This document shows positions 17,867 to 59,209 of a stretch of DNA of 64,000 bases, one piece after another; within the stretch, counting starts at the first letter, position 1; every line of letters begins with the position of its first letter. The notes under the pieces were generated by a model. It searched no databases, was not told the origin of the DNA, and was given only the letters and a program-made list of their open reading frames with translations. Made by a program: the position numbers and the translations under genes. The stretch lies in contig NZ_JACBZT010000001.1 of assembly GCF_013408985.1 (NCBI RefSeq), forward strand, positions 2,046,001-2,110,000, in the 5' to 3' direction. Source of the stretch: Petropleomorpha daqingensis. GTDB lineage: Bacteria; Actinomycetota; Actinomycetes; Mycobacteriales; Geodermatophilaceae.

Positions 17867-19486
17867 ATGGACGTCGAACCCCAGCCCACCGCGCAGGTCG
17901 AGGGAGGGAAGAGCGGGAACGGCTTCGGGCTGAGGACCCGCATGCTCGGCGCGATCCTCGTCGTCGCGCTCGCCACGATCGTCGTCGGCGTCGTCGGCAT
18001 CAACCGCATGTCGGCGCTGAGCGACGAGGCGTCCCGCGTCTACGACGAGGGCGCCAAGCCGCTCGACGGACTGCGCCAGCTGCAGTCGGACTGGTGGGAG
18101 CTCTCGGCCTACACCGCCCGCGCCGCGATCACCGCCCTGCCGCCCGCGTCCATCCAGTCGGCGCAGCAGAGCGCGGCCCAGATGGTCCAGACCCTGAGCG
18201 ACCAGACCGCCGTGGTGGCCAAGATGCAGCTGTCCCCGGAGGCCGAGCAGGCGTTCGCGGAGTTCGGCCAGGCCGTCCAGACCTACCTGCAGGCCCTCGC
18301 GAAGGTCCAGCAGCCCAACCAGCCGATGGCGGTGATCGGTCCGCTGCTGCAGACGATGGACGAGCAGGAAGCGATCATCGCGAAGAGCCTGGTCACCGCG
18401 ACCGAGGCCGCCGCGGCGCAGGCCACCGCGGTCGCCGCCGACGCGCGCGACGCCTACACCTCCGCTCGGACGCTCACCATCGTGATCATCGGGATCGGCG
18501 TGATCGTGGCCGTCGTCCTGGCGCTCGTCGTGGCCCAAGGGGTGATCCGGCCGGCGCGCCGGATCCGCGAGGTGCTCGGACAGGTCGCCGCGGGTGATCT
18601 GTCCGTGCGGGCCGGCGCCACCGGCGGCGGCGAGCTGGGTGAGGTCGCCGCCTCGCTGGACGACACGCTGGAGTCGCTGGGCCACGTCATGAACCTCGTG
18701 CGCGGCTCCGCCACCCGCCTGTCCGATGCCTCCGCGCAGCTCGACGCCGCGTCGCAGGCGATCGCCGACAACGCCCGGACGGCGGCCGGTCAGGCCGAGG
18801 CGGTCGTGACCTCCGCCGGCGAGGTGGCCTCCAGCGTGGACACCGTCGCGGCGGGCTCCTCGCAGATGGAGTCGGCGATCCGGGAGATCGCGCACAACGC
18901 GACCGAGGCGGCGCGCGTCGCCGGCCAGGCCGTGGACGTCGCCGAGAACACCACCAACACCGTGGGCAAGCTCGGCGACTCGTCGCAGGAGATCGCCACC
19001 GTGGTCAAGCTGATCAACGGCATCGCCGAGCAGACCAACCTGCTGGCGCTCAACGCCACGATCGAGGCCGCCCGCGCCGGTGAGGCGGGCAAGGGCTTCG
19101 CCGTCGTCGCCTCGGAGGTCAAGGAGCTCGCGCAGGAGACGGCGCGGGCGACCGAGGACATCTCCAAGCGGGTCGAGGCCATCCAGGCCGACACGGCCGG
19201 GGCGGTCGAGGCGATCAGCCAGATCTCGTCGGTGATCGCGGAGATCAACGACTTCCAGGCGACCATCGCCGCCGCCGTGGAGGAGCAGACGGCGACGACG
19301 AACGAGATGAACCGCAACGTCGCCGAGGCGGCCAGCGGCTCGCAGGACATCGCCGCGGCGATCTCCGGTCTCGCCGCCGGGACGCAGGAGACCAACCAGC
19401 GGGTCGACGACGCCCAGCGCGCCGCGGCCGAACTGGCCCGGATGAGCGGCGAGCTGCAGGACGCCGTCGCCCGCTTCACCGTGTAA
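17867..19486 (+). CDS. Methyl-accepting chemotaxis protein
   Basis: A 539-residue chemoreceptor with TM1 near residues 25-45 ([20 protein letters not shown]), a four-helix sensor region to about 200, TM2 ([21 protein letters not shown]), HAMP, and the cytoplasmic coiled coil with the [18 protein letters not shown] tip. ATG 17867 has GGAGG 6 nt upstream. Its signalling domain is very close to that of the preceding receptor, but the sensor domains differ. The two probably feed the same CheA array with different ligands. No che genes are in the window. Confidence 0.9.
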
Positions 19487-31662: not shown

Positions 31663-31683
31663 GGCGGTTACCCGGCGGTTACC
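31663..31683 (-). promoter_or_regulatory. Tandem 10-bp direct repeat upstream of the acyl-CoA ligase gene
   Basis: GGTAACCGCC occurs twice with an 11-bp period (31674-31683 and 31663-31672, read on the minus strand), the first overlapping the stop of the upstream thioesterase gene. The spacing of one helical turn suggests a regulator or activator site; no regulator is adjacent. Confidence 0.4.
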
Positions 31684-32104
31684 TGGGCCAGAGCACCGAC
31701 TGCGTGCAGCGGAACAGCGCGATCGTCTTGCCGCTCCCCTCGGCGGTGACGGTGGCGTCCCACACCTGCGTCGTCCGCCCGGCGTGCGCGTTGGTGGCGA
31801 CCACGCCGATCCGTCCCTCCCGCGCCGTCCCGAGGTAGTTGGCCTTGAGCTCGATGGTGGTGAACCCGGCCGCTCCCTCGGGCAGCAGCGCGCGGGTGGC
31901 CAGCCCGCAGGCGGTGTCGGCCAGGCCGACGACGGTCGCCGCGTGCAGGTAGCCGTTGGGGGCGAGCACGTCGCGGCGGACGTCGAGGTGTCCCTCGATG
32001 CGCCCCGGCTCGTGCGCGGTGAACACGATGCCGAGCAGCCCGGGCAGCGTGCCCGGCAGCAGGTCGTTGAGCTCGTCGACGGTGTGGAACCCGGTGGCGG
32101 CCAT
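31679..32104 (-). CDS. PaaI-family thioesterase
   Basis: A 141-residue single hotdog-fold thioesterase. The catalytic region reads NGYLHAATVVGLADTACGLATRALL, with the helical Asp typical of the PaaI group, followed by GFTTIELKANYLGTAREG. It hydrolyses acyl- or aryl-CoA esters. ATG 32104 is the start. It lies just upstream of the acyl-CoA ligase gene, so it may act on that enzyme's products. A 61-bp hairpin repeat separates it from the VOC gene upstream. Confidence 0.87.
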   Translation of the reverse strand: MAATGFHTVDELNDLLPGTLPGLLGIVFTAHEPGRIEGHLDVRRDVLAPNGYLHAATVVGLADTACGLATRALLPEGAAGFTTIELKANYLGTAREGRIGVVATNAHAGRTTQVWDATVTAEGSGKTIALFRCTQSVLWPR

Positions 32105-32116
32105 GACGCCGAACCT

Positions 32117-32177
32117 AACGGCCCTCCTGCAGGGGCCCGCCGCGAGCCTGCGAGTGGCGGGGGGCAGGAGGGTCCTT
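32117..32177. repeat. 61-bp intergenic hairpin repeat, copy 1
   Basis: A GC-rich hairpin sequence between the VOC gene and the thioesterase gene, ending inside the VOC stop codon. It matches the copy at 43836-43896 at 54 of 61 positions with no gaps, by my count. Several differences lie at paired stem positions. Likely a terminator-like element spread as a repeat. Confidence 0.7.
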
Positions 32178-32496
32178 AAACCATCGGCCCGACCGGCGTC
32201 TTCCCCACGACGGTCGAACCCCCGAGCTCCCCGATCCGCTCCAGCGCCTCGTCGATGCTCTCGACGTCGACCACGACAACCGGCCCGGGCGACGGGCTGT
32301 CGGAGCGGCGGAGCATCCCGCCGTTGACGAAACCCGGCTCGGTGGGCCCGCGGTCGCCGGTCGGCCCGGTGCTCGCCAGGACGTAGCCCATGCCCGGCAC
32401 GCCCTGCAGCTGCCAGCCGAAGGCGCCCTCGTAGAACTGCTGCGCGCGATCCCCGTCCTCGTAGGGGATCTCGAAGTGCACGACCCGCCCGCTCAT
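32176..32496 (-). CDS. VOC-family (glyoxalase-like) protein
   Basis: A 106-residue vicinal oxygen chelate protein: VVHFEIPYEDGDRAQQFYEGAFGW opens the first beta-alpha-beta-beta unit with its His, and a second unit follows (VVVVDVESIDEALERIGELGGSTVVGKT). Members include glyoxalases, dioxygenases and resistance proteins; the substrate is unknown. ATG 32496 is the start. It lies 11 bp downstream of the formamidase gene on the same strand, so they may share a transcript. Its TAA stop forms the edge of a 61-bp hairpin repeat. Confidence 0.85.
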   Translation of the reverse strand: MSGRVVHFEIPYEDGDRAQQFYEGAFGWQLQGVPGMGYVLASTGPTGDRGPTEPGFVNGGMLRRSDSPSPGPVVVVDVESIDEALERIGELGGSTVVGKTPVGPMV

Positions 32497-32507
32497 GGCG
32501 CGGCACG

Positions 32508-33434
32508 CTAGACCCGGACGGCGTCCCGCGGGAGCAGCGCGTGCACGCCGAAGACCTGGTTGGCCACCTGGGTGACGCGCAGGTCGACCACCACGCTGGC
32601 CAGCGCCATCGCCTCGGACCGACCCAGCCCGTGCAGCGCCCCGAGCAGGTCGAGCATGGCGCTCAGGGCCTCGGCCGCGGCCTCGTCCAGGTCGTTCCCG
32701 AGCCCCATCGCCACCCAGCCGGCCGGGGTGTCGGCGACCGGCGTGGTCAGCGGCCGGCCGAGCAGGTCGCCCTGCACGTCCAGCGTCAGGTCGGCGCGCT
32801 CCACCGGGCACTCGATCGCCGTCCCGCTGACCTCGCCGTCCCCCTGGGCGGCGTGCCCGTCGCCGACGCTGAACAGCGCTCCCTCGACCGGGATCGGCAG
32901 GTAGAGCGTGGAGCCGGCGACCAGCTCGCGGCAGTCGAGGTTCCCGCCGTGCCAGTACGGCGGGATCGTCGAGTGCCGCCCCGGCTCGGCTGGCGGCATG
33001 CCCATCACGCCGAGGAACGGCCGCAGCGCGACGGTGCCGAGGGTGGAGGTCGCCGTTCCGGCGGCCACGTCGATGTCCCACGGGACGACGGCCGGCTGCT
33101 CGACGCCCAGCCGCACGTTCCAGGCGGTGGACCGCACCCCGGCGTACGTCGTGCCCCACGCGCCCGGCACGACGGCCTCGATCCGGACGGCGAGGACGTC
33201 GCCCGGTCGCGCCCCGCGGACCTCCACCGGACCGGTCAGCGCGTGCCCGGAGCCCTCCGTGTGCTGGGGGCTCCGCTCGCGCCCGGGCCCGTGCGGGCCG
33301 GCCCACCAGCCGGAGTCGAGGGCGGCGAACCGCACCGTCGTCCCCGGATCGACGGTGAGCACCGGCGGCAGATCGCGGTCGAACCAGCCGTGCAGGGTGC
33401 GCTCGTCCGGGAGCAGGGTCGGCGGCACGGTCAC
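32508..33434 (-). CDS. Acetamidase/formamidase family protein
   Basis: A 308-residue FmdA/AmdA-type amidohydrolase, expected to hydrolyse short amides to ammonia and acid. Typical segments are HALTGPVEVRGARPGDVLAVRI, FLGVMGMPPAEPGRHSTIPP, GGNLDCRELVAGSTLYLPI and VEGALFSVGDGHAAQGDGEVSGTAIE, the last with conserved acidic and His residues. GTG 33434 overlaps the TGA of the DHPS-like gene (GTGA), so the two are translationally coupled; a longer open frame upstream is a shadow. Confidence 0.88.
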   Translation of the reverse strand: MTVPPTLLPDERTLHGWFDRDLPPVLTVDPGTTVRFAALDSGWWAGPHGPGRERSPQHTEGSGHALTGPVEVRGARPGDVLAVRIEAVVPGAWGTTYAGVRSTAWNVRLGVEQPAVVPWDIDVAAGTATSTLGTVALRPFLGVMGMPPAEPGRHSTIPPYWHGGNLDCRELVAGSTLYLPIPVEGALFSVGDGHAAQGDGEVSGTAIECPVERADLTLDVQGDLLGRPLTTPVADTPAGWVAMGLGNDLDEAAAEALSAMLDLLGALHGLGRSEAMALASVVVDLRVTQVANQVFGVHALLPRDAVRV

Positions 33435-34324
33435 ACCAGGTTGTGCAGGGCGTAGACGGGCGGCGTCATGCCGAGCAGCACCTCGGTCATCCGCACGGCC
33501 CGGACCGTCGGGCGGACGTCGTGCGCGCGGACCAGCCGGGCGCCCTGCAGGATGCACGCCACGGTGGTGGCCAGGCTGCCCTCGAGCCGGTCCTCGGTGC
33601 GCGTCTCGCCGATCGCCTCGCCGATGAAGTCCTTGCGCGAGACCGCCGCCAGGATCGGGTACCCGAGCTCGGCCAGCTCGTCCATGCGCCGGACCAGCTC
33701 CAGCGAGTGGTAAGTGTTCTTGTGCAGGTCGATGCCGGGGTCGATGACGAGCTGCTCGGGTCGCACGCCGCGGTCCAGGCAGAACGCGACCTGGCGGCGC
33801 AGGAACTCCACGACCTCGGCGCTCACGTCGTCGTAGGTCGGCCGGAAGGACGCCGTCCCCGGGCCGTCGGCGGCGTGGGTGATGATCAGCCCGGCCCCGG
33901 TCTCCGCGGCGACGTCCACGATCGCGGGCTCCTTGAGGCCGCTCGCGTCGTTGATGATCGTGGCGCCGGCGGCGATGACCTCCCGCGCCACGTCGGCGCG
34001 CATGGTGTCGACCGAGACGACCAGCCCGGTCTGCTCGGCCGCCGCGGTCACCACGGGCAGCAGCCGGTCCAGCTCCTCGGCGGCCGGCACCCAGGCACCT
34101 GGCGCGTAGGCCACGCCGCCGAGGTCGAGCCAGTCGGCGCCCTCCTCCTCGGCCTGGCGGCAGGCGGCGAGGGCGTCCTCGAAGCGGAACGTCGTCCCGG
34201 GCGCGTGGAAGGAGTCGGGGGTGACGTCGACGACGGCGCCGACGAGCACGCGGCGGGAGAGGTCGAACCGGCGCCCGCCGAACTCCCGCACTCCCACGTG
34301 CGCTTGATCGGGATGAAGCGCCAC
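33431..34324 (-). CDS. Dihydropteroate synthase-like protein (FolP2-like)
   Basis: A 297-residue TIM-barrel protein of the DHPS family. It keeps DVTPDSF near the N-terminus, TIINDASG, and SRKDFIGEAIG. However, the loop that is D-x-G-G-E-S-T-R-P-G in true DHPS reads DLGGVAYAPG here, so the Ser-Thr-Arg that contacts the substrate is missing. The mycobacterial second copy FolP2, which is reported to lack DHPS activity, is altered at the same place. No other folate gene is adjacent. GTG 34324 follows the serine hydrolase stop by 2 bp; a later GTG is also possible. I would not call this the working folate enzyme. Confidence 0.8.
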   Translation of the reverse strand: MALHPDQAHVGVREFGGRRFDLSRRVLVGAVVDVTPDSFHAPGTTFRFEDALAACRQAEEEGADWLDLGGVAYAPGAWVPAAEELDRLLPVVTAAAEQTGLVVSVDTMRADVAREVIAAGATIINDASGLKEPAIVDVAAETGAGLIITHAADGPGTASFRPTYDDVSAEVVEFLRRQVAFCLDRGVRPEQLVIDPGIDLHKNTYHSLELVRRMDELAELGYPILAAVSRKDFIGEAIGETRTEDRLEGSLATTVACILQGARLVRAHDVRPTVRAVRMTEVLLGMTPPVYALHNLV

Positions 34325-34326
34325 GT

Positions 34327-35583
34327 TCAGTCCACCAGGGCCTGGTAGACGAGGGAGCGCAGGTAGGTGCGCACGGGCAGCGTGGACGACGGCATGAGCT
34401 GCGTGTAGAAGCACACGGTCAGGTCCTCGACCGGGTCGACGAAGAACGCCGTCGAGGCCGCGCCGCCCCAGTTGTACTCACCGAGGCTGGAGACGACGCC
34501 GTAGCGGGCCTGGTCGACCACGGTCGCGAAGCCCAGCCCGAAGCCCACCCCGCGCAGCGGCGTCTCGGCGAACAGCGGGCGGCCGAACGTCGCGAGGTCG
34601 GCGTTGCCCGGCAGGTGGTTGCGGGTCATGTGGTCGACCGTGCGGGGTCCCAGCAGCCGACCGCCGTCGTGCTCACCGCGGCGGCGCAGCATCTCGACGA
34701 AGCGCAGGTAGTCCGGCGCGGTGGAGACCAGCCCGCCGCCGCCGGAGAGGTACTTCGGCTTGGACAGGAAGCCGTCGCCGAGCACGTCGAGCGGCTGGAT
34801 GCCGACCGGCGGCCCGAGCGGGTCGCGGCGGACCGGCGCGTAGAGCCGGGCCAGCGTCGAGGGGTCGTCGTCCTCGCGGAGCCCGAAGGACGTGTCGGTC
34901 ATGCCGAGCGGGGCGAAGACCCGCTGCTCGAAGAACTCGTCGAGCGGCTGACCGGAGAGCACCTCGACCAGCCGGCCGAGGACGTCGGTGGAGACGCCGT
35001 AGTTCCACTCGCTGCCGGGCTGGAAGACCAGCGGCAGCGCGGCCCACTGCGCGGTGCACTCGGCGAGGTCGGCGCCGGGCGGGGCGCCCCACTCGTGGCC
35101 GGCGGCCCGGTACATCTCGTCGACCGGGTGCGCGTGGTGGAAGCCGTAGGTCAGCCCCGAGGTGTGCGAGAGCAGGTGCCAGACGCGGATCGGCTCGGTC
35201 TGCGGCTCGGTGACCGGCCGCTGGGCGGAGCCGGCGACGTAGACCGGCGTGTGCGCGAACTCCGGCAGCCACTCGGCGATCGGGTCGTTGAGCTGGAAGG
35301 CGCCCTCCTCGTGCAGCATCATCGCCGCGACCGAGGTGACCGCCTTGGTCATCGAGTAGATGCGCCAGCGGGTCGTCGTCTCCACCGGCAGGGCGTCCTC
35401 GACGTGCCGCAGCCCGCCCAGCCCCACGTGGGCCAGCCGGCCGTGGCGGGCGACGGTGACGAGGTAGCCCGGCAGCAGCCCGTCGTCGACGTAGCGCTGC
35501 AGCCTCCGGTCGAGCCGGTCCAGCCGGGCGGGGTCGAAGCCGACCTCCGCGGGATCGACGTCGACGGTCAGCTCCTGAGCCAC
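34327..35583 (-). CDS. Serine hydrolase (beta-lactamase/class C family)
   Basis: A 418-residue beta-lactamase-superfamily protein, probably an esterase or peptidase. The nucleophile motif is SMTK (IYSMTKAVTSVAAMML, near residue 80), the Tyr motif is WNYGVSTDVLGRLVEVLSG, and a Gly-rich segment with YNWGGAASTAFFVDP stands in for the KTG box. No signal peptide is evident, so it may be cytosolic. GTG 35583 has a GAGGGAG ribosome site. The DHPS-like gene follows 2 bp downstream, making this the head of a serine hydrolase-DHPS-like-formamidase-VOC set. Confidence 0.87.
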   Translation of the reverse strand: MAQELTVDVDPAEVGFDPARLDRLDRRLQRYVDDGLLPGYLVTVARHGRLAHVGLGGLRHVEDALPVETTTRWRIYSMTKAVTSVAAMMLHEEGAFQLNDPIAEWLPEFAHTPVYVAGSAQRPVTEPQTEPIRVWHLLSHTSGLTYGFHHAHPVDEMYRAAGHEWGAPPGADLAECTAQWAALPLVFQPGSEWNYGVSTDVLGRLVEVLSGQPLDEFFEQRVFAPLGMTDTSFGLREDDDPSTLARLYAPVRRDPLGPPVGIQPLDVLGDGFLSKPKYLSGGGGLVSTAPDYLRFVEMLRRRGEHDGGRLLGPRTVDHMTRNHLPGNADLATFGRPLFAETPLRGVGFGLGFATVVDQARYGVVSSLGEYNWGGAASTAFFVDPVEDLTVCFYTQLMPSSTLPVRTYLRSLVYQALVD

Positions 35584-35701
35584 GGGCCACTCCCTCGAGA
35601 AGGCCGTCCGCCGTCGGACGGCGCCTGCCCTCGCATCCTCACCCACGCACCTGAGCGCGGGCGCGAGGAGGGCAGGCGCCGGACCGGTCGATCAGGATCG
35701 A

Positions 35702-35986
35702 TCAGACCGGGACGTTGCCGGCGGCCTTCTTCAGGTTCGAGCCCGCGGTCACCTTGACCGTGTTGGCGGCCGGGATGTCGATGGACTCGCCGGTCTGCGG
35801 GTTGCGCCCGGTGCGCGCGGAACGCTGGGTGCGCTCCACGGTGAGCAGGCCGGAGACCGCGACCTTCTCGCCGCGCGTGATCGCGTCGACGAGCTCCTCC
35901 TGGAGGGCGTCCACGACCGAGTTCACGGTCGAGGCCGGGACGTCGGCGCGCTTGGCGATGGCGGAGACCAGTTCGCTCTTGTTCAC
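35702..35986 (-). CDS. hup: HU-family DNA-binding protein
   Basis: A 94-residue nucleoid protein. MNKSELVSAIAKRADVPASTVNSVVDALQEEL forms the dimerising helices, and RTGRNPQTGESIDIPA is the DNA-bending arm with the Pro at its tip. It lacks the long Lys/Ala-rich C-terminal tail of mycobacterial HupB, so it is a short bacterial HU. GTG 35986 has a GAGAGGAA ribosome site. The 263 bp upstream to the aldo/keto reductase gene are non-coding and probably hold its promoter; I see no other feature there. Confidence 0.93.
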   Translation of the reverse strand: MNKSELVSAIAKRADVPASTVNSVVDALQEELVDAITRGEKVAVSGLLTVERTQRSARTGRNPQTGESIDIPAANTVKVTAGSNLKKAAGNVPV

Positions 35987-36249
35987 AGGGTTCCTCTCGG
36001 TGTGGTGGCCGGTGCTCTGTCCCGGAAAAACGGACTCGGCACCCGGCCGTCTCCTTCTCGGGGACCCGCGCAGGCACGAACCCCCCGTATTTCGGCCCGG
36101 ACCTCGGGTGTTGAGGCCGGACCGGACGTGCACGCTGCCAGACAGGGCCGGGATCCCGCCAGTGCGGGTCCTGCGGAATCCCTGCAGTCACAGGCGTACC
36201 GGTCCGTCACGGATACCCAGGACAGCGGCCCGTACGCCCCCCGCTTAGC

Positions 36250-37182
36250 GTGGGGGACGTGCCACGCATCCCCGGGACCGATCTGGACGTCAGCGATCTC
36301 TGCCTCGGCGGCAACGTCTTCGGCTGGACGGCCGACGAGCCGACGACGTTCGCGCTGCTCGACCGCTTCAACGACGCGGTGCCGTCGGTGCTGCGCCCGT
36401 TCGTCGACACCGCCGAGTCCTACGGCGACGGCACGTCCGAGCGGCTGCTCGGCGCGTGGATGGCCGAGCGCGGGATGCGCGACCGGTTCGTGGTGGCCAC
36501 GAAGGCCTCGCGGATGCAGAAGGAGCACCCGCTGTCGGCGGGGGAGATCAGGACGGCGGTGGAACGGTCACTGCGGAATCTCCGGACCGACGTCATCGAC
36601 GTCTACTACGCCCACTACGACGACGAGACGACGCCGCTCGAGGAGACGCTGACCGCCTTCGACGAGCTCGTGACCAGCGGCAAGATCCGCTACGCGGCGG
36701 CGTCGAACTACTCGGCGGCGCGGCTGAGCGAGGCGCTGGCGACCTCCGAGCGGCTCGGCATCACGCGCTACGTCGCGCTGCAGCCGCACTACAACCTGAT
36801 GGAGCGCCCGGCCTACGAGGACGAGCTGCGCGACGTCGTCGCCCGCCACGACCTGGGCTGCTTCCCGTACTTCGGTCTGGCGCGCGGGTTCCTGACCGGC
36901 AAGTACCGGCCGGGCGAGCAGATCGACTCGCCGCGCGCGCAGGGGGCGGCGAAGTACGTGGGGGAGAAGGGCGACCGCGTGCTCGCGGCGCTCGAGGAGG
37001 TGGCCCGGGCGCACGGGGTCACCGGTTCGGCGGTGGCGCTGCGGTGGCTGGCCGACCAGCCGACGGTGACCGCGCCGATCGCCAGCGGCCGCGACGTCGA
37101 CCAGCTGGCCGACCTGCTGCCGATGCAGGACCTCCGGCTCGCCGACGACGAGCTCCGGCTGCTGACCGACGCCTCGGCGTAG
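36250..37182 (+). CDS. Aldo/keto reductase
   Basis: A 310-residue NADPH-dependent TIM-barrel oxidoreductase. The catalytic tetrad is visible as Asp and Tyr in VDTAESYGDG, Lys in VVATKAS and His in DVYYAHYDDET. IASGRDVDQLADLL forms the C-terminal cofactor clamp. It belongs to the AKR type often seen reducing aldehydes or sugars. GTG 36250 is used; GTG 36259 is also possible. Its TAG is followed by a perfect 18-bp hairpin shared with the convergent DUF1059 gene. Confidence 0.9.
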   Translation: MGDVPRIPGTDLDVSDLCLGGNVFGWTADEPTTFALLDRFNDAVPSVLRPFVDTAESYGDGTSERLLGAWMAERGMRDRFVVATKASRMQKEHPLSAGEIRTAVERSLRNLRTDVIDVYYAHYDDETTPLEETLTAFDELVTSGKIRYAAASNYSAARLSEALATSERLGITRYVALQPHYNLMERPAYEDELRDVVARHDLGCFPYFGLARGFLTGKYRPGEQIDSPRAQGAAKYVGEKGDRVLAALEEVARAHGVTGSAVALRWLADQPTVTAPIASGRDVDQLADLLPMQDLRLADDELRLLTDASA

Positions 37183-37183
37183 T

Positions 37184-37224
37184 CGGAGGCTGGGAGCGCA
37201 GGTTTTCTGCGCTCCCAGCCTCCG
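37184..37224. terminator. GGAGGCTGGGA-family hairpin, copy 2 (bidirectional terminator)
   Basis: A perfect 18-bp stem (37184-37201 and 37207-37224) with a GTTTT loop fits exactly between two convergent stop codons, one ending at 37182 and the other starting at 37226. The stem contains GGAGGCTGGGA, as in the hairpin at 29983. Confidence 0.85.
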
Positions 37225-37225
37225 T

Positions 37226-37399
37226 TCAGGCGCTGACGATGCGGTCGCGGACGGCCTGCACCAGCTCCGGGGTGACGTCGTGGATGCCGTGGTCGTGCGC
37301 GGCGTGGCCGGCGACCTGGGCCAGGATGCCGTCCTCGTCGGCGGCCGAGAACCGGGCGCTGCAACCGGGGACGACGTCGCCGCAGGCGAAGGTCTTCAT
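37226..37399 (-). CDS. DUF1059 small protein
   Basis: A 57-residue protein, MKTFACGDVVPGCSARFSAADEDG..., with two Cys near the N-terminus and a His-rich centre (VAGHAAHDHGIHDV), typical of the DUF1059 family. ATG 37399 has AAGGAG 6 nt upstream. The function is unknown; family members are small soluble proteins, and the Cys/His content hints at metal binding. It is convergent with the aldo/keto reductase. Confidence 0.85.
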   Translation of the reverse strand: MKTFACGDVVPGCSARFSAADEDGILAQVAGHAAHDHGIHDVTPELVQAVRDRIVSA

Positions 37400-37459
37400 G
37401 GGGGACTCCTTGGTCGTTGGGGGACGGGCGGACCGGGCCTCAGCGGCCCGGGGTCTGGG

Positions 37460-38704
37460 TCACCTCGCGTGGCGGGCGGAGGCGAGGTCCTCGAGGCGCA
37501 GCAGGCCGAGCACGGTGCCGGTCGGATCGGTGACCAGCACGGGGTCGAAGCGCTGGGCCGGGGGCCGGGTGAGCGCGCGCTGCAGGGTCTCGGCGATGTC
37601 GGCCGAGGGGTGCACCCGCAGCGACACGGGCGCCAGGTAGACCTCCGCCGTCCGCGGGTCGCGCAGCACCAGGCCGGTGGGCTCGCCGAGCGGGCCGACC
37701 AGGACGGCGGGCGGCGGCTCGGCGACGTCCGCCCCGGCCTCGATCTGCCGCACGGGACGCATCAGGCTGGCGACGCTCTCGGTGAGCTGCACCCGGGCGA
37801 CCTGGCCCTTGACCAGCCGGATCACCTCGGGCGCCAGCGGCGCGAAGCCCGGGCCCGGGCGGCCGAGGACCCAGCCCTGGCCCAGCGGCACGCCCAGGCG
37901 CATGAACGCGGCCAGCTCGGCGACGGTCTCGAGGCCCTCGGCGAGCAGCCACGCGTCGATCCGGCCGGCGAACTCGCCCATCATCTCGGCCAGCGCCACG
38001 CGCACGGGGTCGGTGTCGGCGTCGCTGACCAGCGCGCGGTCGAGCTTGACCACCTGCGGGCGCAGCTCGGCCATCTGCTGCAGCCCCGAGTAGCCGGAGC
38101 CGGCGTCGTCCAGGGCGATGAGCGCGCCGCGCTCGCGCAGCTCGGCGATCTGGCTCTTGAGCGCGGACAGGTCGTCGACGGGGGTGTGCTCGGTCAGCTC
38201 GACGACGACGCGGCGCAGGTCGCGGCGGATGGCCAGCGCGTCCTGGATCGGGTCGGTGCCCAGCAGGTGGGGGCTGACGTTGACGGTCAGGAAGGTGTTG
38301 TCCGGCAGGCCCGGGACGGCGGCCAGCGCCTTGTGGATCGCCAGGGCCTCGAGCTCGGCGTCCAGTCCCGCGTCCGCCGCGGCGGCGAACCACACGTCCG
38401 GGCCGGCGGTGCCGGGGAAGCGGGAGAGCGCCTCGTAGCCGGCGATCGTCGCGCCCGCGAGGTCGACGATCGGCTGGAAGGCCAGCGTGAGGTCGTCGGG
38501 GGACGCCAGCAGCGGACGGCAGTCCGGCAGGGCGAGCAGACGCGACGCGGGCACGAGGTGGGCATCGGTCTCCCACGGCCGTACGTGGAGGTCGGAGACC
38601 TCCCTCTCACCCGTCCGGGGGAGCGCGGCGCGCCGTCCCTCCTCGGGACGATCCCGTTTCGTACCAGCGGGCGTGACAGCATGTCCCGAACGCCGTGGGC
38701 CCAA
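37460..38704 (-). CDS. EAL-domain c-di-GMP phosphodiesterase with C-terminal CBS-like region
   Basis: An EAL domain begins at LTLAFQPIVDLAG and includes GYEALSRFP in place of the classic EAL motif, NVSPHLL, ELTEHTPV, ALDDAGSGYSGLQQM, and KLDRALV with the catalytic Lys. Glu in LLAEGLET completes the metal site. The signature is A-L-S rather than E-V-L but the metal-binding residues look largely present, so c-di-GMP hydrolysis is plausible. The last 110 residues resemble a CBS-type module (VLVTDPTGTVLGLLRLEDL). The start is uncertain: TTG 38704 is the outer limit and GTG 38554 is the next choice; neither has a good ribosome site. It is divergent from a SpoIIE phosphatase. Confidence 0.8.
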   Translation of the reverse strand: MGPRRSGHAVTPAGTKRDRPEEGRRAALPRTGEREVSDLHVRPWETDAHLVPASRLLALPDCRPLLASPDDLTLAFQPIVDLAGATIAGYEALSRFPGTAGPDVWFAAAADAGLDAELEALAIHKALAAVPGLPDNTFLTVNVSPHLLGTDPIQDALAIRRDLRRVVVELTEHTPVDDLSALKSQIAELRERGALIALDDAGSGYSGLQQMAELRPQVVKLDRALVSDADTDPVRVALAEMMGEFAGRIDAWLLAEGLETVAELAAFMRLGVPLGQGWVLGRPGPGFAPLAPEVIRLVKGQVARVQLTESVASLMRPVRQIEAGADVAEPPPAVLVGPLGEPTGLVLRDPRTAEVYLAPVSLRVHPSADIAETLQRALTRPPAQRFDPVLVTDPTGTVLGLLRLEDLASARHAR

Positions 38705-38748
38705 CCAGGAGCCCGCTGCCCGCCGACGAGTCCGAGGGGAGATCTCGC

Positions 38749-41472
38749 GTGGCGGCGCTGCCCACCCCCTCGACGCCCGACGTCCTGCGGGATCCCCACC
38801 GCATCGCCAGCGCCCGACGGCTGCTGGTGGAGGTCCCCGGTCCGGCCGCGTTCGACCGGCTCTCGGCGCTGGCGGCGCGGCTGGTCGGCGCCGGCCACGC
38901 CAAGGTCACGCTGTTCACCGACCAGGACATCGTCGTCGGCGGCTACGGGCTGCCGGCCGGCGTCGTGGGTGGTCCCGCACTGCTCACCGGTGCGCTCTCG
39001 GCGATCGTCGTCCGCGAGGGCACCCCGCTGAACATCCCCGACGCCCGCGCGAACGAGCGGGTCGCGGACCTGCCCGCGGTCACCTCCGGGCAGGTGCAGG
39101 CGTACCTCGGGGCGCCGATCATCGCCGCGTCGGGGCACATCGTCGGCGTCCTCGCCGTCTACGACCCGACCCCGCGGTCGTGGACCGGCGACGCGACCGA
39201 GCTGCTCGAGCAGCTGTCGGCGTCGGTGGTCGCCGAGCTGGAGCTCTCCGCCGCCCAGTCCGCCGTCGGCGCCTCCTCCGCCCGGCTGGACGTCGCCCTG
39301 GAGGCCGGCTCGGTCGGCATCTGGGAGCGCGACCTGCGCACCGGCTCGGTGTTCTGGGACGAGCGGGCCTCCGGGATCATGGGCTTCGAGGGCGCGGTGC
39401 AGCTCGACTCGCTCGAGCAGCTGATGAGCCACATCCACCCCGAGGACCACGCCACCGTCCAGCAGGCGATGCAGACCGCGCTGGCGGAGCGCGGTGCCTT
39501 CCTCGCCGAGTGCCGGGTGCTGCGCACCGACGGCGCGGTGCGGTGGACCGTCTCCCGCGCGCGCGTCGTCGCCGACCCGAGCGGGGAGCCGATCCGGGTC
39601 CTCGGCACCGTCGTCGACGTCACCGACGCCCGCGAGCAGTCGGCGCGCCGGTTGTCGGCGGTGCAGCGGGCGGCGGCGATCGCCGAGGTCGCCGCGGAGC
39701 TGGCCAACGCCACCCGCGTCGAGGAGCTGGCCGACATCGCCCAGCGCGGCGGCCAGGTGCTCGGCGCGAGCTCCAGCGCGCTGGCCGTGTTCGACCCCGG
39801 CGGCGCGCCGCTGCGGCTGCACATGACGCACTGGCTGGTCGACCAGGCCCGCGCGGGGGCCGACGTCGAGCTGCCGCGCGACGGCATCCCGATCGAGCTG
39901 GACGACGAGCTGCCCACCCAGTGGGTCGCCCGGCACGGCCGGCGGGTGTTCCTCGCCACCCCGGAGGAGGCGCGTGCCCGGTTCCCGCGGATGGGCGAGA
40001 TCAGCGCCGTCCTCGGTGTGCAGGCCCTCGCCGCGCTGCCGCTGCGGGTCGAGAGCCGGGTGCTCGGCAGCTTCGTCGTCGTCTGGGACACCGAGCACCC
40101 GTTCGCCGGTGACGACCTCGAGGTGCTCGAGGCGCTCACCGCGCAGATCGCGCTGTCGGTCTCCCGGCTGCAGGCCGACGTGGAGCGCGACGCCGCCGTG
40201 GCCGCCATGACCGAGGCCAACCGGCACCTGCAGCTGCTCGCCGACGTCGGCGAGGTGCTCTCCGACAGCCTCGACATCGAGGACCAGATCGACCGGCTGA
40301 CCGCGCGCATCGTGCCGGGCATCGCGGACTGGTGCTACCTCGTCGTCACCGACGAGCAGGGCCGGCCGCAGCAGCTGGCGGCGGCTCACCGCGATCCGGA
40401 GCGGCGGGCGCTGGTCTCCGAGTACGTCAAGGCCCTCGTCGCGGGGGCCAGCGAGGAGGCGGCGCTGCACGTCGCCGTCCGGAGCGGGCAGGTGGTCCGG
40501 ACGACGATCGACCAGGCCTACCTGGATGCGGTGCTGCCCGATCCGGCGCTGCGTGAGCTCTTCGCCCGCCTCGGCGGGACGTCGGCCACGGTCGTGCCCC
40601 TCACCGGGCGCGGGCGGACGCTCGGCGCGCTCGGGCTGCTCAACGACCCCGAGCGCGGGCCGCACTCCGACGCGGAGGTCGACACCCTCGTCGAGATCGG
40701 CCGCCGCGCCGGGCTGGCGCTGGAGCACGCGCGGCTGTTCGGCCAGCAGCGCGCGCTGGCCGAGACGCTGCAGCGCAGCATGCTCACCGCCCCGCCACGG
40801 CCCTCCGGCACCGAGATCGTCGTGCGCTACGTGCCGGCCGCCGCCGGCGCCGAGATCGGCGGCGACTGGTACGACGCGTTCCTGCAGCCCGACGGCTGCA
40901 CGGTGCTCGCGATCGGCGACGTCGTCGGCCACGACAGCCGGGCCGCGGCCGCGATGGGCCAGGTCCGCGGCCTGCTGCGGGGCATCAGCTACTCCAGCGG
41001 CGACACCCCGGCCGGCGTGCTGCGCCAGCTCGACCGCGCGGTGCGCGGCCTCGCGCTGGACACGATGGCCACCTGCCTGGTCGCCCGCCTCGAGCCGGAC
41101 GACGGTGCCGCCGGGACGACGCTGCGGTGGTCCAACGCCGGTCACCTGCCGCCGGCCGTGCTCGCCCCCGACGGCACCGTGACGCTGCTCGACGACGGCC
41201 CGGTGGACCTGCTGCTCGGCGTCGCCCCGGACACCCCGCGCACCGACCGCGTCGCCGTCCTGCCGCCCGGTGCGACCGTGCTGCTCTACACCGACGGGCT
41301 GGTCGAGCGGCGCGACCGCGACCTCGACGCCGGGGCGGCGGAGCTGGCCGAGGTGCTGCGCCGCTGCGCCGGGCTGCCGCTGGCCGAGCTGTGCGACCGG
41401 GTGCTCGAGCGGCTGTTCCTGCCCGACGCCGAGGACGACGTCGCCGTCCTGGCCGTCCGGCTCGCGGGCTGA
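38749..41472 (+). CDS. GAF-PAS-GAF-GAF sensor protein with PP2C/SpoIIE phosphatase domain
   Basis: A 907-residue soluble sensor phosphatase. Domains in order: GAF (about 15-165), PAS with PAC (about 180-310, HPEDHATVQQAM...GTVVDVTD), GAF (about 320-480), GAF (about 500-675), then PP2C_SIG (about 700-905). Phosphatase motifs are GAEIGGDWYDAF, AIGDVVGHDSRAAAAM and NAGHLPPAVL, with TDGLVERRDRD and the terminal AEDDVAVLAV supplying metal-binding Asp residues. It probably dephosphorylates an anti-sigma-factor antagonist in a stress pathway. There is no kinase domain. GTG 38749 has a GAGGGGAGA ribosome site. It is divergent from the EAL gene. Confidence 0.9.
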   Translation: MAALPTPSTPDVLRDPHRIASARRLLVEVPGPAAFDRLSALAARLVGAGHAKVTLFTDQDIVVGGYGLPAGVVGGPALLTGALSAIVVREGTPLNIPDARANERVADLPAVTSGQVQAYLGAPIIAASGHIVGVLAVYDPTPRSWTGDATELLEQLSASVVAELELSAAQSAVGASSARLDVALEAGSVGIWERDLRTGSVFWDERASGIMGFEGAVQLDSLEQLMSHIHPEDHATVQQAMQTALAERGAFLAECRVLRTDGAVRWTVSRARVVADPSGEPIRVLGTVVDVTDAREQSARRLSAVQRAAAIAEVAAELANATRVEELADIAQRGGQVLGASSSALAVFDPGGAPLRLHMTHWLVDQARAGADVELPRDGIPIELDDELPTQWVARHGRRVFLATPEEARARFPRMGEISAVLGVQALAALPLRVESRVLGSFVVVWDTEHPFAGDDLEVLEALTAQIALSVSRLQADVERDAAVAAMTEANRHLQLLADVGEVLSDSLDIEDQIDRLTARIVPGIADWCYLVVTDEQGRPQQLAAAHRDPERRALVSEYVKALVAGASEEAALHVAVRSGQVVRTTIDQAYLDAVLPDPALRELFARLGGTSATVVPLTGRGRTLGALGLLNDPERGPHSDAEVDTLVEIGRRAGLALEHARLFGQQRALAETLQRSMLTAPPRPSGTEIVVRYVPAAAGAEIGGDWYDAFLQPDGCTVLAIGDVVGHDSRAAAAMGQVRGLLRGISYSSGDTPAGVLRQLDRAVRGLALDTMATCLVARLEPDDGAAGTTLRWSNAGHLPPAVLAPDGTVTLLDDGPVDLLLGVAPDTPRTDRVAVLPPGATVLLYTDGLVERRDRDLDAGAAELAEVLRRCAGLPLAELCDRVLERLFLPDAEDDVAVLAVRLAG

Positions 41473-41476
41473 CCGC

Positions 41477-42163
41477 TCACTGCTGCTTCCGGCGGGCGAC
41501 GAAGCGGCTGCGCGCGCGGGTGGGCAGGTCGACCGCGACCGGCGCCTCCCAGCCGCGCCAGACCGACAGCACGTTCAGGCCCGCCACCAGCACGATGACG
41601 ATCGCGGCGACCGGCAGCGGCGGCAGGTCGAGCGGCCCGGCCAGCACGGTCAGCGCGACCGCGCCGATCAGCGCGGCCACCGCGAAGTACGGGCCGGGCC
41701 GCACGATGTAGGCCTGCTGCGCCAGCAGCATGTCCCGGATGACGGCACCACCCACCGCCGTCACCACGCCGATGAAGACCACCGACGCGCTCGGCAGCCC
41801 GGCGAGCTGCGCCTTCTGGGCGCCGATGACCGTGAAGAAGCCCAGGGTGACCGCGTCGAGCACCACCAGCAGCACGGTCAGCCGGGACAGCCAGCCGGAG
41901 AAGAAGAAGGTCACCGCCGCGGTGATGGCGACCGTCGGCAGGTAGGCCTTGTTGGTGAGCGCGACCGGCGTCGCGTGGGCCAGCAGGATGTCGCGGATCA
42001 GCCCGCCGCCGAGCCCCCCGCTGACCGCCAGCAGCAGCACCCCGGAGACGGCGAAACCCTCGCGCGCGGCGAGCAGCCCGCCGGTCAGCGCGCCGATGAC
42101 GACGGCGGCCAGATCGACGACGTGCGGCACCTTGAGCGCTTCGGTGGCAGCGGCGATGTACAC
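41477..42163 (-). CDS. TRIC-like trimeric intracellular cation channel family protein
   Basis: A 228-residue membrane protein of the UPF0126/TRIC family with about seven hydrophobic segments. The family shows two repeated three-helix units, each with a Gly-rich turn: VSGGLGGGLIRDILL and VTAVGGAVIRDMLLA. These GGxxRD motifs are diagnostic. It probably forms a potassium or small-ion channel. GTG 42163 is the start. The basic tail RSRFVARRKQQ is cytosolic. It is convergent with the phosphatase gene and divergent from the amidase. Confidence 0.87.
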   Translation of the reverse strand: MYIAAATEALKVPHVVDLAAVVIGALTGGLLAAREGFAVSGVLLLAVSGGLGGGLIRDILLAHATPVALTNKAYLPTVAITAAVTFFFSGWLSRLTVLLVVLDAVTLGFFTVIGAQKAQLAGLPSASVVFIGVVTAVGGAVIRDMLLAQQAYIVRPGPYFAVAALIGAVALTVLAGPLDLPPLPVAAIVIVLVAGLNVLSVWRGWEAPVAVDLPTRARSRFVARRKQQ

Positions 42164-42273
42164 GGCTGGAGATTGTCGACGGCGGCTGTGCCGGCTCCGG
42201 TGACAGGGGGGAACGTGCGGTCCTAGCGTGGCGCCATCCCCTCGTCGCCCCGTCGGCCGCCCCGGAGGTTGCC

Positions 42274-43827
42274 ATGGCCGTCCCTCGACCCGATCGCGAC
42301 GACGTCGCCGCGCTGGCCCGCGCGTACGGGCTGCAGCACACCGACGCCGACCTCGACACCTACGCCCTGCTGGTCGCCGGCTCGTTCGACGCCTACGAGG
42401 CGGTCGAGGAGCTGTACGAGGCGATCCGCCCGGAGCCGCCCGCCGACCGCCCCGTCACGTGGCCCGAGGAGGCGGACAACCCGCTCGGCGCCTGGTACGT
42501 GCGGACCGAGATCCGGGGCGCCGACGACGGTCCTTTCGCCGGGCGCACCGTGGCGATCAAGGACAACACCGCGGTGGCCGGCGTCCCGATGATGAACGGC
42601 TCGCACACGCTGGAGGGCTTCGTGCCCACGCGCGACGCCACCGTGGTCAGCCGGCTGCTGGCCGCGGGCGCGACGATCACCGGCAAGGCCGTCTGCGAGG
42701 ACCTCTGCTTCTCCGGCGGCAGCCACACCTCGTGCACCGGACCGGTGCGCAACCCGTGGGACCCGTCCCGGACCACCGGCGGCAGCTCCAGCGGCAGCGC
42801 CGCGCTGGTGGCCGCCGGAGAGGTGGACCTCGCGCTCGGCGGCGACCAGGGCGGCTCCATCCGGATGCCGGCGGCCTTCTCCGGCATCGTCGGCCACAAG
42901 CCGACCCACGGCCTGGTGCCCTACACCGGCGCCTTCCCGATCGAGCTGACCCTCGACCACCTCGGGCCGATGACCCGCACGGTCGCCGACGCCGCCGCGA
43001 TGCTCGACGTCCTCGCCGGCCGCGACGGCCTCGACCCGCGGCAGCCGGCCGACCTGGCGCCCGAGCACTACGCGGCGGCCCTCGGCGGCGACGTCGCCGG
43101 GCTGCGCGTCGGCGTGGTCGCGCAGGGCTTCGGGATCCCCGGGCTGTCGGAGGACGGCGTCGACGAGACGGTGCGCGCGGCCGCCGGCCGGCTGCGCGAG
43201 CTCGGCATCGAGGTGGTCGACGTCGACGTCCCCTGGCACACGAACGCCATGGCGGTGTGGGCGGTCATCGCCACGGACGGCGCGACGATCCAGATGGTCG
43301 ACGGCGAGGGCTACGGCCACAACTACTGGGGGCTCTACGACCCCGAGCTGGTCGAGCACTACGGCCGGCAGCGCCGCGAGGTGGGAGACCGCTGGTCGCC
43401 GACGGTGACGGTGACCGCGCTGGCCGGGCGGTGGTCGGTGGAGAAGCTGCACACCCGGCACTACGCGATGGCCCGCAACCTCGCCTTCGAGGTGCGCGCC
43501 CGGTACGACGCGGCGCTGGCCGACGTCGACCTGCTGGTGATGCCGACGGTGCCGATGGTGGCGCGCACGATCCCGGCGCCGGACGACCCGCTCGAGGTCC
43601 GGATCGCGCGCGGGCTGGAGATGATCGTCAACTGCGCGCCGTTCGACGTCAGCGGGCACCCGGCGACCAGCGTCCCGGCCGGTCTCTCCGAGGGGCTGCC
43701 GGTCGGGATGATGCTGGTCGGCCGCCGGTTCGAGGACACGACCTGCCTCAAGGTCGCGCACGCCTACGAGCAGCTGCTCGGCGGCTTCCCGGCCCCACCC
43801 GTCCGCGAACCCGCCACGGCCTGGTGA
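42274..43827 (+). CDS. Amidase (amidase-signature family)
   Basis: A 517-residue amidase with the Ser-cisSer-Lys triad: Lys96 in VAIKDNT, cis-Ser near 171 in GGSSSGSAA and nucleophile Ser195 in GGDQGGSIRMPAAFSG. GHKPTHGLVPYTGAFPIELTLDHLGPMTRTVADAA is also typical. An unusual N-terminal helical domain of about 70 residues (LARAYGLQHTDADLDTYALLV) is shared with amidases of the AmdA type. It cleaves amides of unknown identity. ATG 42274 is the start. A 61-bp hairpin repeat follows its stop. Confidence 0.9.
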   Translation: MAVPRPDRDDVAALARAYGLQHTDADLDTYALLVAGSFDAYEAVEELYEAIRPEPPADRPVTWPEEADNPLGAWYVRTEIRGADDGPFAGRTVAIKDNTAVAGVPMMNGSHTLEGFVPTRDATVVSRLLAAGATITGKAVCEDLCFSGGSHTSCTGPVRNPWDPSRTTGGSSSGSAALVAAGEVDLALGGDQGGSIRMPAAFSGIVGHKPTHGLVPYTGAFPIELTLDHLGPMTRTVADAAAMLDVLAGRDGLDPRQPADLAPEHYAAALGGDVAGLRVGVVAQGFGIPGLSEDGVDETVRAAAGRLRELGIEVVDVDVPWHTNAMAVWAVIATDGATIQMVDGEGYGHNYWGLYDPELVEHYGRQRREVGDRWSPTVTVTALAGRWSVEKLHTRHYAMARNLAFEVRARYDAALADVDLLVMPTVPMVARTIPAPDDPLEVRIARGLEMIVNCAPFDVSGHPATSVPAGLSEGLPVGMMLVGRRFEDTTCLKVAHAYEQLLGGFPAPPVREPATAW

Positions 43828-43835
43828 CGTGATGG

Positions 43836-43896
43836 AACGGCCCCCCTGCAGGGCCCCGCCGCGAGCTTGCTCGCGGCGGGGGGCAGGGGGGTCCTT
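43836..43896. repeat. 61-bp intergenic hairpin repeat, copy 2
   Basis: Same element as at 32117-32177, here filling the gap between the convergent amidase and acyl-CoA dehydrogenase genes and ending one base before the latter's stop. It can fold into one long stem with a TTGC-type loop (CGCGAGCTTGCTCGCG in the centre). Probably a bidirectional terminator. Confidence 0.75.
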
Positions 43897-45951
43897 CTAC
43901 TGGGCCGGGGCGACCTCGAGGTCGGTGGCGCTCTCCTTCGAGGCCTGGCGGCCCTCCGCGCCCTGGCGCACCTCGGCGTCGCGGGCGGCCATCGCCTCCT
44001 GGCGGTCGTCCTCCTCCTCGAGGATCTTCGCGGCCTTCCACGCAGCCGGGATCGCGAACGCGTCCACCAGGGTGGTCATGTGCGGCCGCAGCTCCTTGAG
44101 CAGCGTGTTCACCGTCGCGGTCAGCACCTTGGCCCGGGTCGGGGTGAGCCGGCCGTGCTCCAGGAACCACGCCTTGTCCTGCTCGATCGTCCACAGCGCG
44201 TAGAGGTCGCAGAGCTTCTCGAGCAGGGCCTGGGCGTCGGGGTCCGTCGTCCGCTCGATGCCGGCGACGAACGCCTCGAGGATCACCCGGTCGATGTGCG
44301 TCTGCGCCGTCCGCAGGACGTGGTCCTGGACGTCGTTGAACATGTCGAAGGGCTCCATGCCCTCGGTCGCCGCGTTCTTGCGCAGCCGCTTGATCGCGCC
44401 CTCGAGGGAGTGCTTCTCGCGGAACTCGAACATCTTCAGCTGCCACCCGCGGTCGAGCATCGGGACGTCGTCGTCCCGGCCCGGCACCGCGTCGACCAGG
44501 CGGGCGATCAGCCCGCGGGCCGCCGTCCGCTCGAGGACCGTCTCGCGGACCAGATCGGCGACGAAGCCGACCTTGCCCCAGCCGTCCAGCGAGCCGAACG
44601 CGTCGCGGTAGCCGGTGAGCAGGCCCTTGGCGACCAGCTGCAGCAGGACGGTGTTGTCGCCCTCGAACGTGGTGAAGACGTCGGTGTCGGCCTTGAGCGC
44701 GGGCAGCCGGTTCTCGGCCAGGTAGCCGGCGCCGCCGCACGCCTCGCGCGCCATCTGGATGGTCCGGGTCGCGTGCCAGGTGTTGGCCACCTTGAGTCCC
44801 GCCGCCCGCGACTCCAGCTCGCGCTGCCCGGCCTCGTCGATCTCCTCGCCGAGGACGTGGGTCTTGTACTGCACGTCGTGCATCGTGCTGACCAGCTCCT
44901 CCTGCGCGAAGTGCAGCGCGTAGGAGGTGGCCAGCGCCGGCAGCAGCTTGCGCTGGTGCACGAGGTAGTCGTTGATGACGATCTCGCGGTCCTTGCCGGG
45001 GGCGGCGAACTGGCGGCGCACGTTGCCGTAGCGGACGGCGATGTCCAGAGCCATCTTCGTGGCCGATCCGGCCGAGCCGCCGACGCTCACCCGCCCGCGC
45101 ACCAGCGTGCCGAGCATGGTGAAGAAGCGGCGGGTCTCGTTCTCGATGCTCGAGGTGTAGGTGCCGTCCTCGGCGACCTGGCCGTACCGGTCGAGCAGCA
45201 TGTCGCGGGGCACGCGCACGTGGTCGAAGCTCAGCCGGCCGTTGTCGACGCCGAGCAGGCCGGCCTTCGGACCGTCGTCCCCGATGGTGACGCCCTCGCA
45301 CGGGGTGCCGTCGTCGTTGCGGATCGGCACCAGCCAGGCGTGCACGCCGTGGTTCTTGCCCTGGGTGATCAGCTGGGCGAAGACGACGGCCATCCGGCCG
45401 TCCTTGGCGGCGTTGCCGATGTAGTCCTTGCGCGCGGCCTCGTGCGGGGTGTGCAGGTCGAAGGTGCCCGTCTCCGCGTCGTAGGTGCAGGTGGTGCGCA
45501 GCTGCTGGACGTCGGAGCCGTGCCCGGTCTCGGTCATCGCGAAGCAGCCGGGCAGGTCGAAGCTCATGATGTCGGCGAGGTGCGCGCGGTGGTGCCGCTC
45601 GGTGCCCAGCAGCTGGACGGCGCCGCCGAACAGGCCCCACTGCACGCCGGCCTTGACCATCAGCGACAGGTCGCCGAAGGCGAGCATCTCGATGGAGGCC
45701 ACCGAGCCGCCGGAGTCGTCCTGGCCGCCGTACTCCTTGGGGAAGCCGAGGCCGACCCGGCCGGTGGCGGCCAGCTTCTTGGCCAGCCGGCTGATCCGCT
45801 CGCGGGCTTCCTGCATCGTCTCGCCGTACACCGGTGCGAACTCGGGGTCGCCGAGGTGTTCACGGGCGTCGCGCCGGACGTGGCCCCAGCGGCCGTCGAG
45901 GACCTCCTGGAGCTTCCCCGGGTCCACGGTCGTTGGCAGGGTCGACGTCAC
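43897..45951 (-). CDS. Acyl-CoA dehydrogenase/oxidase
   Basis: A 684-residue flavoprotein of the acyl-CoA dehydrogenase/oxidase superfamily. An extended N-terminal helical domain is followed by the FAD-binding segment CFAMTETGHGSDVQQLRTTCTY, the middle beta domain, and REACGGAGYLAENRLPALKADTDVFTTFEGDNTVL. The last of these and the long C-terminal domain resemble acyl-CoA oxidases. It performs the first step of beta-oxidation. It occupies the place of fadE5 in the mycobacterial fadE5-fadA2-fabG4-htdX locus but is longer, so orthology is uncertain. GTG 45951 overlaps the TetR stop (GTGA). Confidence 0.87.
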   Translation of the reverse strand: MTSTLPTTVDPGKLQEVLDGRWGHVRRDAREHLGDPEFAPVYGETMQEARERISRLAKKLAATGRVGLGFPKEYGGQDDSGGSVASIEMLAFGDLSLMVKAGVQWGLFGGAVQLLGTERHHRAHLADIMSFDLPGCFAMTETGHGSDVQQLRTTCTYDAETGTFDLHTPHEAARKDYIGNAAKDGRMAVVFAQLITQGKNHGVHAWLVPIRNDDGTPCEGVTIGDDGPKAGLLGVDNGRLSFDHVRVPRDMLLDRYGQVAEDGTYTSSIENETRRFFTMLGTLVRGRVSVGGSAGSATKMALDIAVRYGNVRRQFAAPGKDREIVINDYLVHQRKLLPALATSYALHFAQEELVSTMHDVQYKTHVLGEEIDEAGQRELESRAAGLKVANTWHATRTIQMAREACGGAGYLAENRLPALKADTDVFTTFEGDNTVLLQLVAKGLLTGYRDAFGSLDGWGKVGFVADLVRETVLERTAARGLIARLVDAVPGRDDDVPMLDRGWQLKMFEFREKHSLEGAIKRLRKNAATEGMEPFDMFNDVQDHVLRTAQTHIDRVILEAFVAGIERTTDPDAQALLEKLCDLYALWTIEQDKAWFLEHGRLTPTRAKVLTATVNTLLKELRPHMTTLVDAFAIPAAWKAAKILEEEDDRQEAMAARDAEVRQGAEGRQASKESATDLEVAPAQ

Positions 45952-59122: not shown

Positions 59123-59209
59123 GGAGGGCTCGCCTAGTGGCCGATGGCGGCGGTCTTGAAAACCGCTATGGGGTCAAACCCATCGTGGGTTCGAATCCCA
59201 CGCCCTCCG
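59123..59209 (+). tRNA. tRNA-Ser(UGA)
   Basis: An 87-nt class II tRNA. The acceptor stem GGAGGGC (59123-59129) pairs with GCCCTCC (59202-59208), with discriminator G 59209. The anticodon loop is CTTGAAA in a GCGGT/ACCGC stem, so the anticodon is UGA (serine, UCA codons). A long variable arm GGGGTCAAACCCA and the T arm with TTCGAAT follow. CCA is not encoded. TAGCAT about 20 bp upstream could be its -10. Confidence 0.95.

Follow-up and report, generated by a model that had tools for sequence, protein, structure and literature searches.

A structured repeat of roughly 60-80 bp occurs in about 66 copies, mostly at gene ends, in the 5.38-Mb genome of Petropleomorpha daqingensis. Its copies have a common origin, a covarying two-helix fold with conserved loops, and one end anchored to stop codons, and they are gained and lost quickly in either orientation. 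With a probability of about 0.6, we explain the element as a non-autonomous, REP-like palindrome specific to Geodermatophilaceae, which spreads or is exchanged fast and settles behind stop codons as a terminator-like hairpin.

Two copies in the window and the family fold

The window, a stretch of 64,000 nucleotides, carries two copies that align without gaps and are identical at 54 of 61 positions, the same figure as in the first-pass annotation. That annotation had also claimed paired differences between them. The outer-stem change from CCTCC/GGAGG to CCCCC/GGGGG was indeed found and turns one U-A pair into C-G, but it is the only compensatory pair that the two copies, taken alone, provide in this stem. 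Both copies end at a minus-strand stop codon, as had been stated: the end of copy 1 shares bases with the TAA of a VOC gene, and the TAG of an acyl-CoA oxidase/dehydrogenase gene directly borders copy 2. Copy 1 lies between co-directional genes and copy 2 between convergent genes. Genes were called on genome stretches with a simple codon-score finder, and domains were assigned by Pfam. The features are as follows.

32117..32177, plus strand: copy 1 in the folding (T) orientation (blastn, alignment, covariance model)
32120..32130, plus strand: copy 1, 5′ arm of the outer stem, pairing with 32164-32174 (structure tested on 27 and 150 copies)
32164..32174, plus strand: copy 1, 3′ arm of the outer stem (structure tested on 27 and 150 copies)
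32136..32143, plus strand: copy 1, 5′ arm of the inner stem, pairing with 32154-32161 (same structure tests on 27 and 150 copies)
32154..32161, plus strand: copy 1, 3′ arm of the inner stem (structure tests on 27 and 150 copies)
32144..32153, plus strand: copy 1, apical loop, family consensus GAGCNTGCGA (near-invariant columns)
32176..32178, minus strand: stop codon TAA of the VOC gene, overlapping the end of copy 1 (gene call, Pfam)
32176..32496, minus strand: VOC / glyoxalase-like gene, whose 3′ end bears copy 1 (gene call, Pfam)
31679..32104, minus strand: thioesterase (4HBT) gene, co-directional and downstream, 12 bp from copy 1 (gene call, Pfam)
43836..43896, plus strand: copy 2 in the folding (T) orientation, its apical stem lengthened into a perfect hairpin (alignment, folding, covariance model)
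43839..43849, plus strand: copy 2, 5′ arm of the outer stem, pairing with 43883-43893 (folding, structure test)
43883..43893, plus strand: copy 2, 3′ arm of the outer stem (folding, structure test)
43855..43880, plus strand: copy 2, inner stem and loop (folding)
43823..43835, plus strand: copy 2, extended left part GGTGACGTGATGG, common to many copies and including the amidase stop codon TGA (43825-43827)
43897..43899, minus strand: stop codon TAG of the acyl-CoA oxidase/dehydrogenase gene, directly adjoining copy 2 (gene call)
43897..45951, minus strand: acyl-CoA oxidase/dehydrogenase gene, whose 3′ end bears copy 2 (gene call, Pfam)
42274..43827, plus strand: amidase gene, convergent, at copy 2 (gene call, Pfam)

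RNA folding z-scores were -2.3 to -3.0 for copy 1 and -5.7 to -6.1 for copy 2. Both copies fold better on the plus strand, although both adjoining stop codons belong to the minus strand. The element had no Rfam match at the gathering score; the sole Rfam match in the window is a tRNA gene at 59123-59209. Elsewhere in the window, 17007-17511 and 18786-19290 form a tandem duplication (73-82% identity) whose translation has a chemoreceptor-type motif.

A blastn search with copy 1 gave about 36 convincing places in the genome. Chance origin is excluded, because this search found copy 2 at E 3e-16 and about 34 further copies at E < 1e-3. A strict pattern search matched the two window copies only; the larger count given above came from a covariance model. 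Such a scan had been proposed in the first-pass annotation as a check on its claim that the hairpins share an origin and form a dispersed structured element. The claim stands: the scan revealed neither a lack of further copies nor a loss of pairing, since it returned some 66 copies with covarying stems.

The convincing blastn places were aligned in one direction, the T orientation, defined as AACGGCC...GGTCCTT. The family fold consists of an 11-pair outer stem, an AGGGN/GG internal loop, an 8-pair inner stem and a ten-base apical loop with the consensus named above. The columns of both loops are near-invariant and the stems covary freely, which suggests that the folded single strand is recognised. 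In 27 copies from P. daqingensis, 97.8% of the cells were paired and two-sided changes numbered 48, where shuffles averaged 10. For 150 copies from named relatives, 97.4% of the cells were paired and 315 had two-sided changes, compared with 71 after shuffling; these latter figures are biased toward the structure because the alignment was fitted to the model. Shifting the register of the 150-copy alignment abolished the covariation signal.

Tandem copies and half copies also occur. For example, three tandem copies with a spacing of exactly 66 bp were found at G019:C24:140447-140639. At two loci (near 1943 in L096 and near 4899 in L163), half copies that break off in the apical loop precede a full copy sharing their left extension, an arrangement that looks like duplication of the 5′ half.

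Placement and strand asymmetry at gene ends

The 3′ edge of genes is the home of the family; this is one of the best-supported results. In the T orientation, the right-hand gene is antisense for 52 of 62 intergenic copies in P. daqingensis and for 122 of 145 other copies (122:23), and the orientation of the left-hand gene is random (68 vs 77). The end of the element lies between -7 and +5 nt from the stop codon of the right-hand antisense gene in 113 of 126 cases. The favoured stop registers are TGA +2 (59), TAG 0 (11), TGA -1 (11) and TAA -2 (6), so that in some registers the stop codon is completed by the AA or A of the element itself. Measured against all spacers of at least 25 bp (n = 551), those with the family are more often convergent (22/59 vs 89/551 overall) and less often divergent (6/59 vs 163/551).

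The fold is strand-specific. Among paired positions, the T strand has 298 G.U against 18 A.C. When two fixed G.U pairs are left out, the ratio is 71:17, with a binomial p of 5e-9 that is indicative only because the copies share ancestry. The T strand has the more stable fold in 159 of 164 copies. Per 10 nt after the hairpin there are 3.8 U on the T strand and 1.3 on the other strand; a proper U-tract is missing from both. Curiously, the strand with the better fold is the one pointing into the anchored gene.

Distribution and turnover among relatives

The element has so far been found to be confined to Geodermatophilaceae, a family of desert and rock bacteria. The covariance model matched 28 of 61 genomes, all 28 from this family. 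It had no match in 24 genomes of other families in the order or, with stricter filters, in 197 other genomes of the same class. A pattern scan of 84,980 species gave at least 119 loci, and those among the matches listed were all from Geodermatophilaceae: Geodermatophilus, Blastococcus, Modestobacter, Klenkia, Trujillonella, Goekera and MAGs of the group, with two MAGs among the matches listed titled only Frankiales bacterium. Phages, plasmids and viral contigs gave no match, and carriage by any of these was rejected. Most sampled genera carry from 25 to at least 95 copies, and two complete relatives have only 1-5. These differences are seen between complete genomes of one genus: 1 copy (G018) vs at least 89 (G010) in one case, and 5 copies (G002) vs at least 73 (G013) in another.

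Fast turnover of the family is the other best-supported result. In two syntenic 200-kb comparisons between species 92-95% identical in the compared loci, 2 of about 20 judged sites were shared; the rest were empty, held a remnant or held a different hairpin. Empty sites include convergent genes with stop codons overlapping in CTAG. Comparison of empty and filled sites showed short replacements of 5-18 bp with no clean insertion, and no target-site duplication of the kind expected of a MITE. The type of stop codon differs between species at several of the compared sites.

Single loci show the same range of states. In 30 genomes with an orthologue of the acyl-CoA gene, the slot downstream of it held the element, part of it, no element or another hairpin instead. 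One convergent gene pair was followed in 26 Geodermatophilus genomes: its states include overlapping stops, short spacers, a copy anchored to one gene, copies anchored to the other and hence reversed, a palindrome anchored to both, and deletion remnants. One copy in P. daqingensis sits in frame inside a gene for a UvrD-like helicase, to which it adds about 18 codons compared with 24 orthologues.

Several other palindromes were seen at such positions or in short spacers. Behind the acyl-CoA gene, relatives of one genus (L230, L233, L240, L245, L247) have a different palindrome, TTGATCATCGGC...GCCGATGATCA, in the same post-stop slot, and L231, L234 and L235 have a further, near-perfect one, GTCGTGCTCTG...CAGAGCACGAC, 3′ of the stop codon. 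In Modestobacter, at two gene ends (the G016 counterparts of L315:17785 and L321:17991), the place of the element is taken by a longer composite palindrome, GTGATCAGG...CCCCCCGCACCAACGTTGGTGCGGGGGG...CCTGATCAC. Intergenic spacers of 42-59 bp (L283-L292, L302) are filled by a small palindrome family of Geodermatophilus, CCGTGCACCTCCGCGGA....

Proposed mobility and termination, and comparison with known systems

We infer both the mobilising mechanism and the terminator function. The folded strand, as ssDNA or RNA, may be recognised through its loops by some host or mobile factor, which would then move it. At gene ends the hairpin would stop RNA polymerase, best in the direction toward the antisense strand of the anchored gene. 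The direction of the better-folding strand would fit the stopping of incoming antisense or convergent transcription, and would likewise fit ssDNA recognition during movement. The preference for gene ends could come from target choice, from tolerance combined with benefit, or from both. The element is probably a movable transcription stop signal, and terminator action at the gene end would be its most likely effect on the host. Against this reading stand the failure to find a mobilising enzyme (below), the short replacements that distinguish empty from filled sites, the missing U-tract, and the many orthologous gene ends that have no hairpin at all and so do not need a terminator. A more specific proposal is possible, and we put it forward tentatively: a new class of mobile palindromes, working without RAYT or reverse transcriptase, might target gene 3′ ends. 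Its end (TAAGGACC, TGAAGGACC, TAGAAGGACC, TGAGNAAGGACC) would form or replace the stop codon, recognition of its folded strand would depend on two loops, AGGGN (internal) and GAGCNTGCGA (apical), and the host would gain portable, reversible terminators at many of its gene ends.

The copies could instead be intrinsic terminators maintained by the host, copied between gene ends by recombination and kept where a site needs them, with mobility incidental. A GC-rich hairpin just 3′ of the gene end, as found here, is one mark of an intrinsic terminator; a U-rich tract after the hairpin, seen on neither strand, is another. The placement right behind stops, the bias toward convergent and away from divergent genes, and the unrelated hairpins in the same slot of some relatives are all in keeping with this. 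We nevertheless consider it unlikely, since close relatives share so few of the judged sites and most counterparts have no hairpin, some complete relatives are down to 1-5 copies, and one copy is in frame within a coding gene. A terminator does not need such strong loop conservation either, and the stable strand points away from the anchored gene's own transcript. Of the "terminator family" suggested in the first-pass annotation, the position at gene ends was confirmed, the element is not an essential fixture of its sites, and the label is unproven. The consistent orientation relative to the anchored gene and the conserved unpaired bases would also suit a post-transcriptional RNA element, a 3′-UTR site for a protein or sRNA in that gene's mRNA. 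This is improbable: the mRNA strand folds worse, with A.C mismatches at fixed positions, and site turnover is too fast for a conserved regulon.

The enzymes that might move a hairpin were searched for directly. A true REP, moved by a RAYT (TnpA-REP, a Y1 HUH enzyme) through a strand-specific ssDNA hairpin, would account for the strand-specific fold, the conserved loops, the high copy number and the clusters and tandem copies. Y1_Tnp (PF01797, RAYT type) was found in 0 of 40 Geodermatophilaceae genomes, with 5 of 14 control genomes positive, and no conserved GTAG, a sequence important in REP/RAYT systems (PMC8266576), was found 5′ of the hairpin in the left flanks of the folding strand. The absence of Y1_Tnp largely refutes this reading, to which we give almost no weight. 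Y2_Tnp (IS91) was found in 1 of 40 genomes, one of low completeness and free of the element, and both enzyme types were rejected as movers. Reverse transcription of a structured RNA from the folding strand into gene ends would fit the sharp 3′ end at the stop codon, the variable 5′ side and the RNA-like polarity of the fold. This too is very improbable, as RVT_1 had no match in the P. daqingensis genome or in several copy-rich relatives (G001, G003, G014, G019, G027, G030) and there is no excess of lone 3′ halves; the partial copies are 5′ halves and inner hairpins. The 5′-truncation expected of retro-insertion was not seen, lone 3′ halves being mostly regex misses of full copies. Integron attC sites were considered because they also follow stop codons and fold on one strand, and were rejected on inspection: the ends are unlike RYYYAAC/GTTRRRY boxes, and the copies lie scattered instead of forming arrays.

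Among known systems, the REP/BIME sequences of E. coli, associated with TnpA-REP, resemble the element as short, imperfect, high-copy palindromes that are mostly extragenic, have a strand-specific hairpin with conserved irregularities and occur in clusters and tandems (PMC8266576). The element differs in its longer two-helix fold and in having one end locked to stop codons, and its clade lacks the Y1 transposase and the GTAG guide. It has the general properties of a REP-like repeat (high-copy, extragenic, a strand-specific imperfect palindrome), and is REP-like but not a RAYT-REP because the tests for the enzyme and for GTAG were negative. The "REP-like" suggestion of the first-pass annotation therefore holds for dispersal, strand specificity and fast turnover, and fails for the defining enzyme.

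The MIRU of mycobacteria is a small non-autonomous actinobacterial repeat at stop codons of chromosomal genes; it lies between translationally coupled genes of the same direction and codes through. The element appears analogous in also lying at stop codons, but it is a strong hairpin and occupies convergent about as often as co-directional spacers. Rickettsia palindromic elements are short palindromes able to sit in frame within genes. In-frame insertion is common to both, with one clear case here, where almost all copies are at gene ends. Intrinsic terminators, including the U-tract-poor ones proposed for actinobacteria, share the GC-rich hairpin directly 3′ of the stop; the element differs from them as one sequence family with conserved loops, limited to one bacterial family, with fast site change and a better antisense fold. 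Systematic scans of bacterial genomes have defined foldable repeat families, the stem-loop sequence families (PMC2267715). No such element in Geodermatophilaceae was found in a literature search that covered few subscription papers, and we provisionally regard it as new to the literature.

Gene ends are usually thought to be slow to change. The Geodermatophilaceae appear to rewrite many of their gene 3′ ends, sometimes including the stop codon, by means of a small hairpin without a recognised transposase. Many empty, filled and reversed sites exist among sequenced relatives, so that both the mechanism by which the element moves and the consequences of acquiring or losing a terminator-like hairpin are directly testable.
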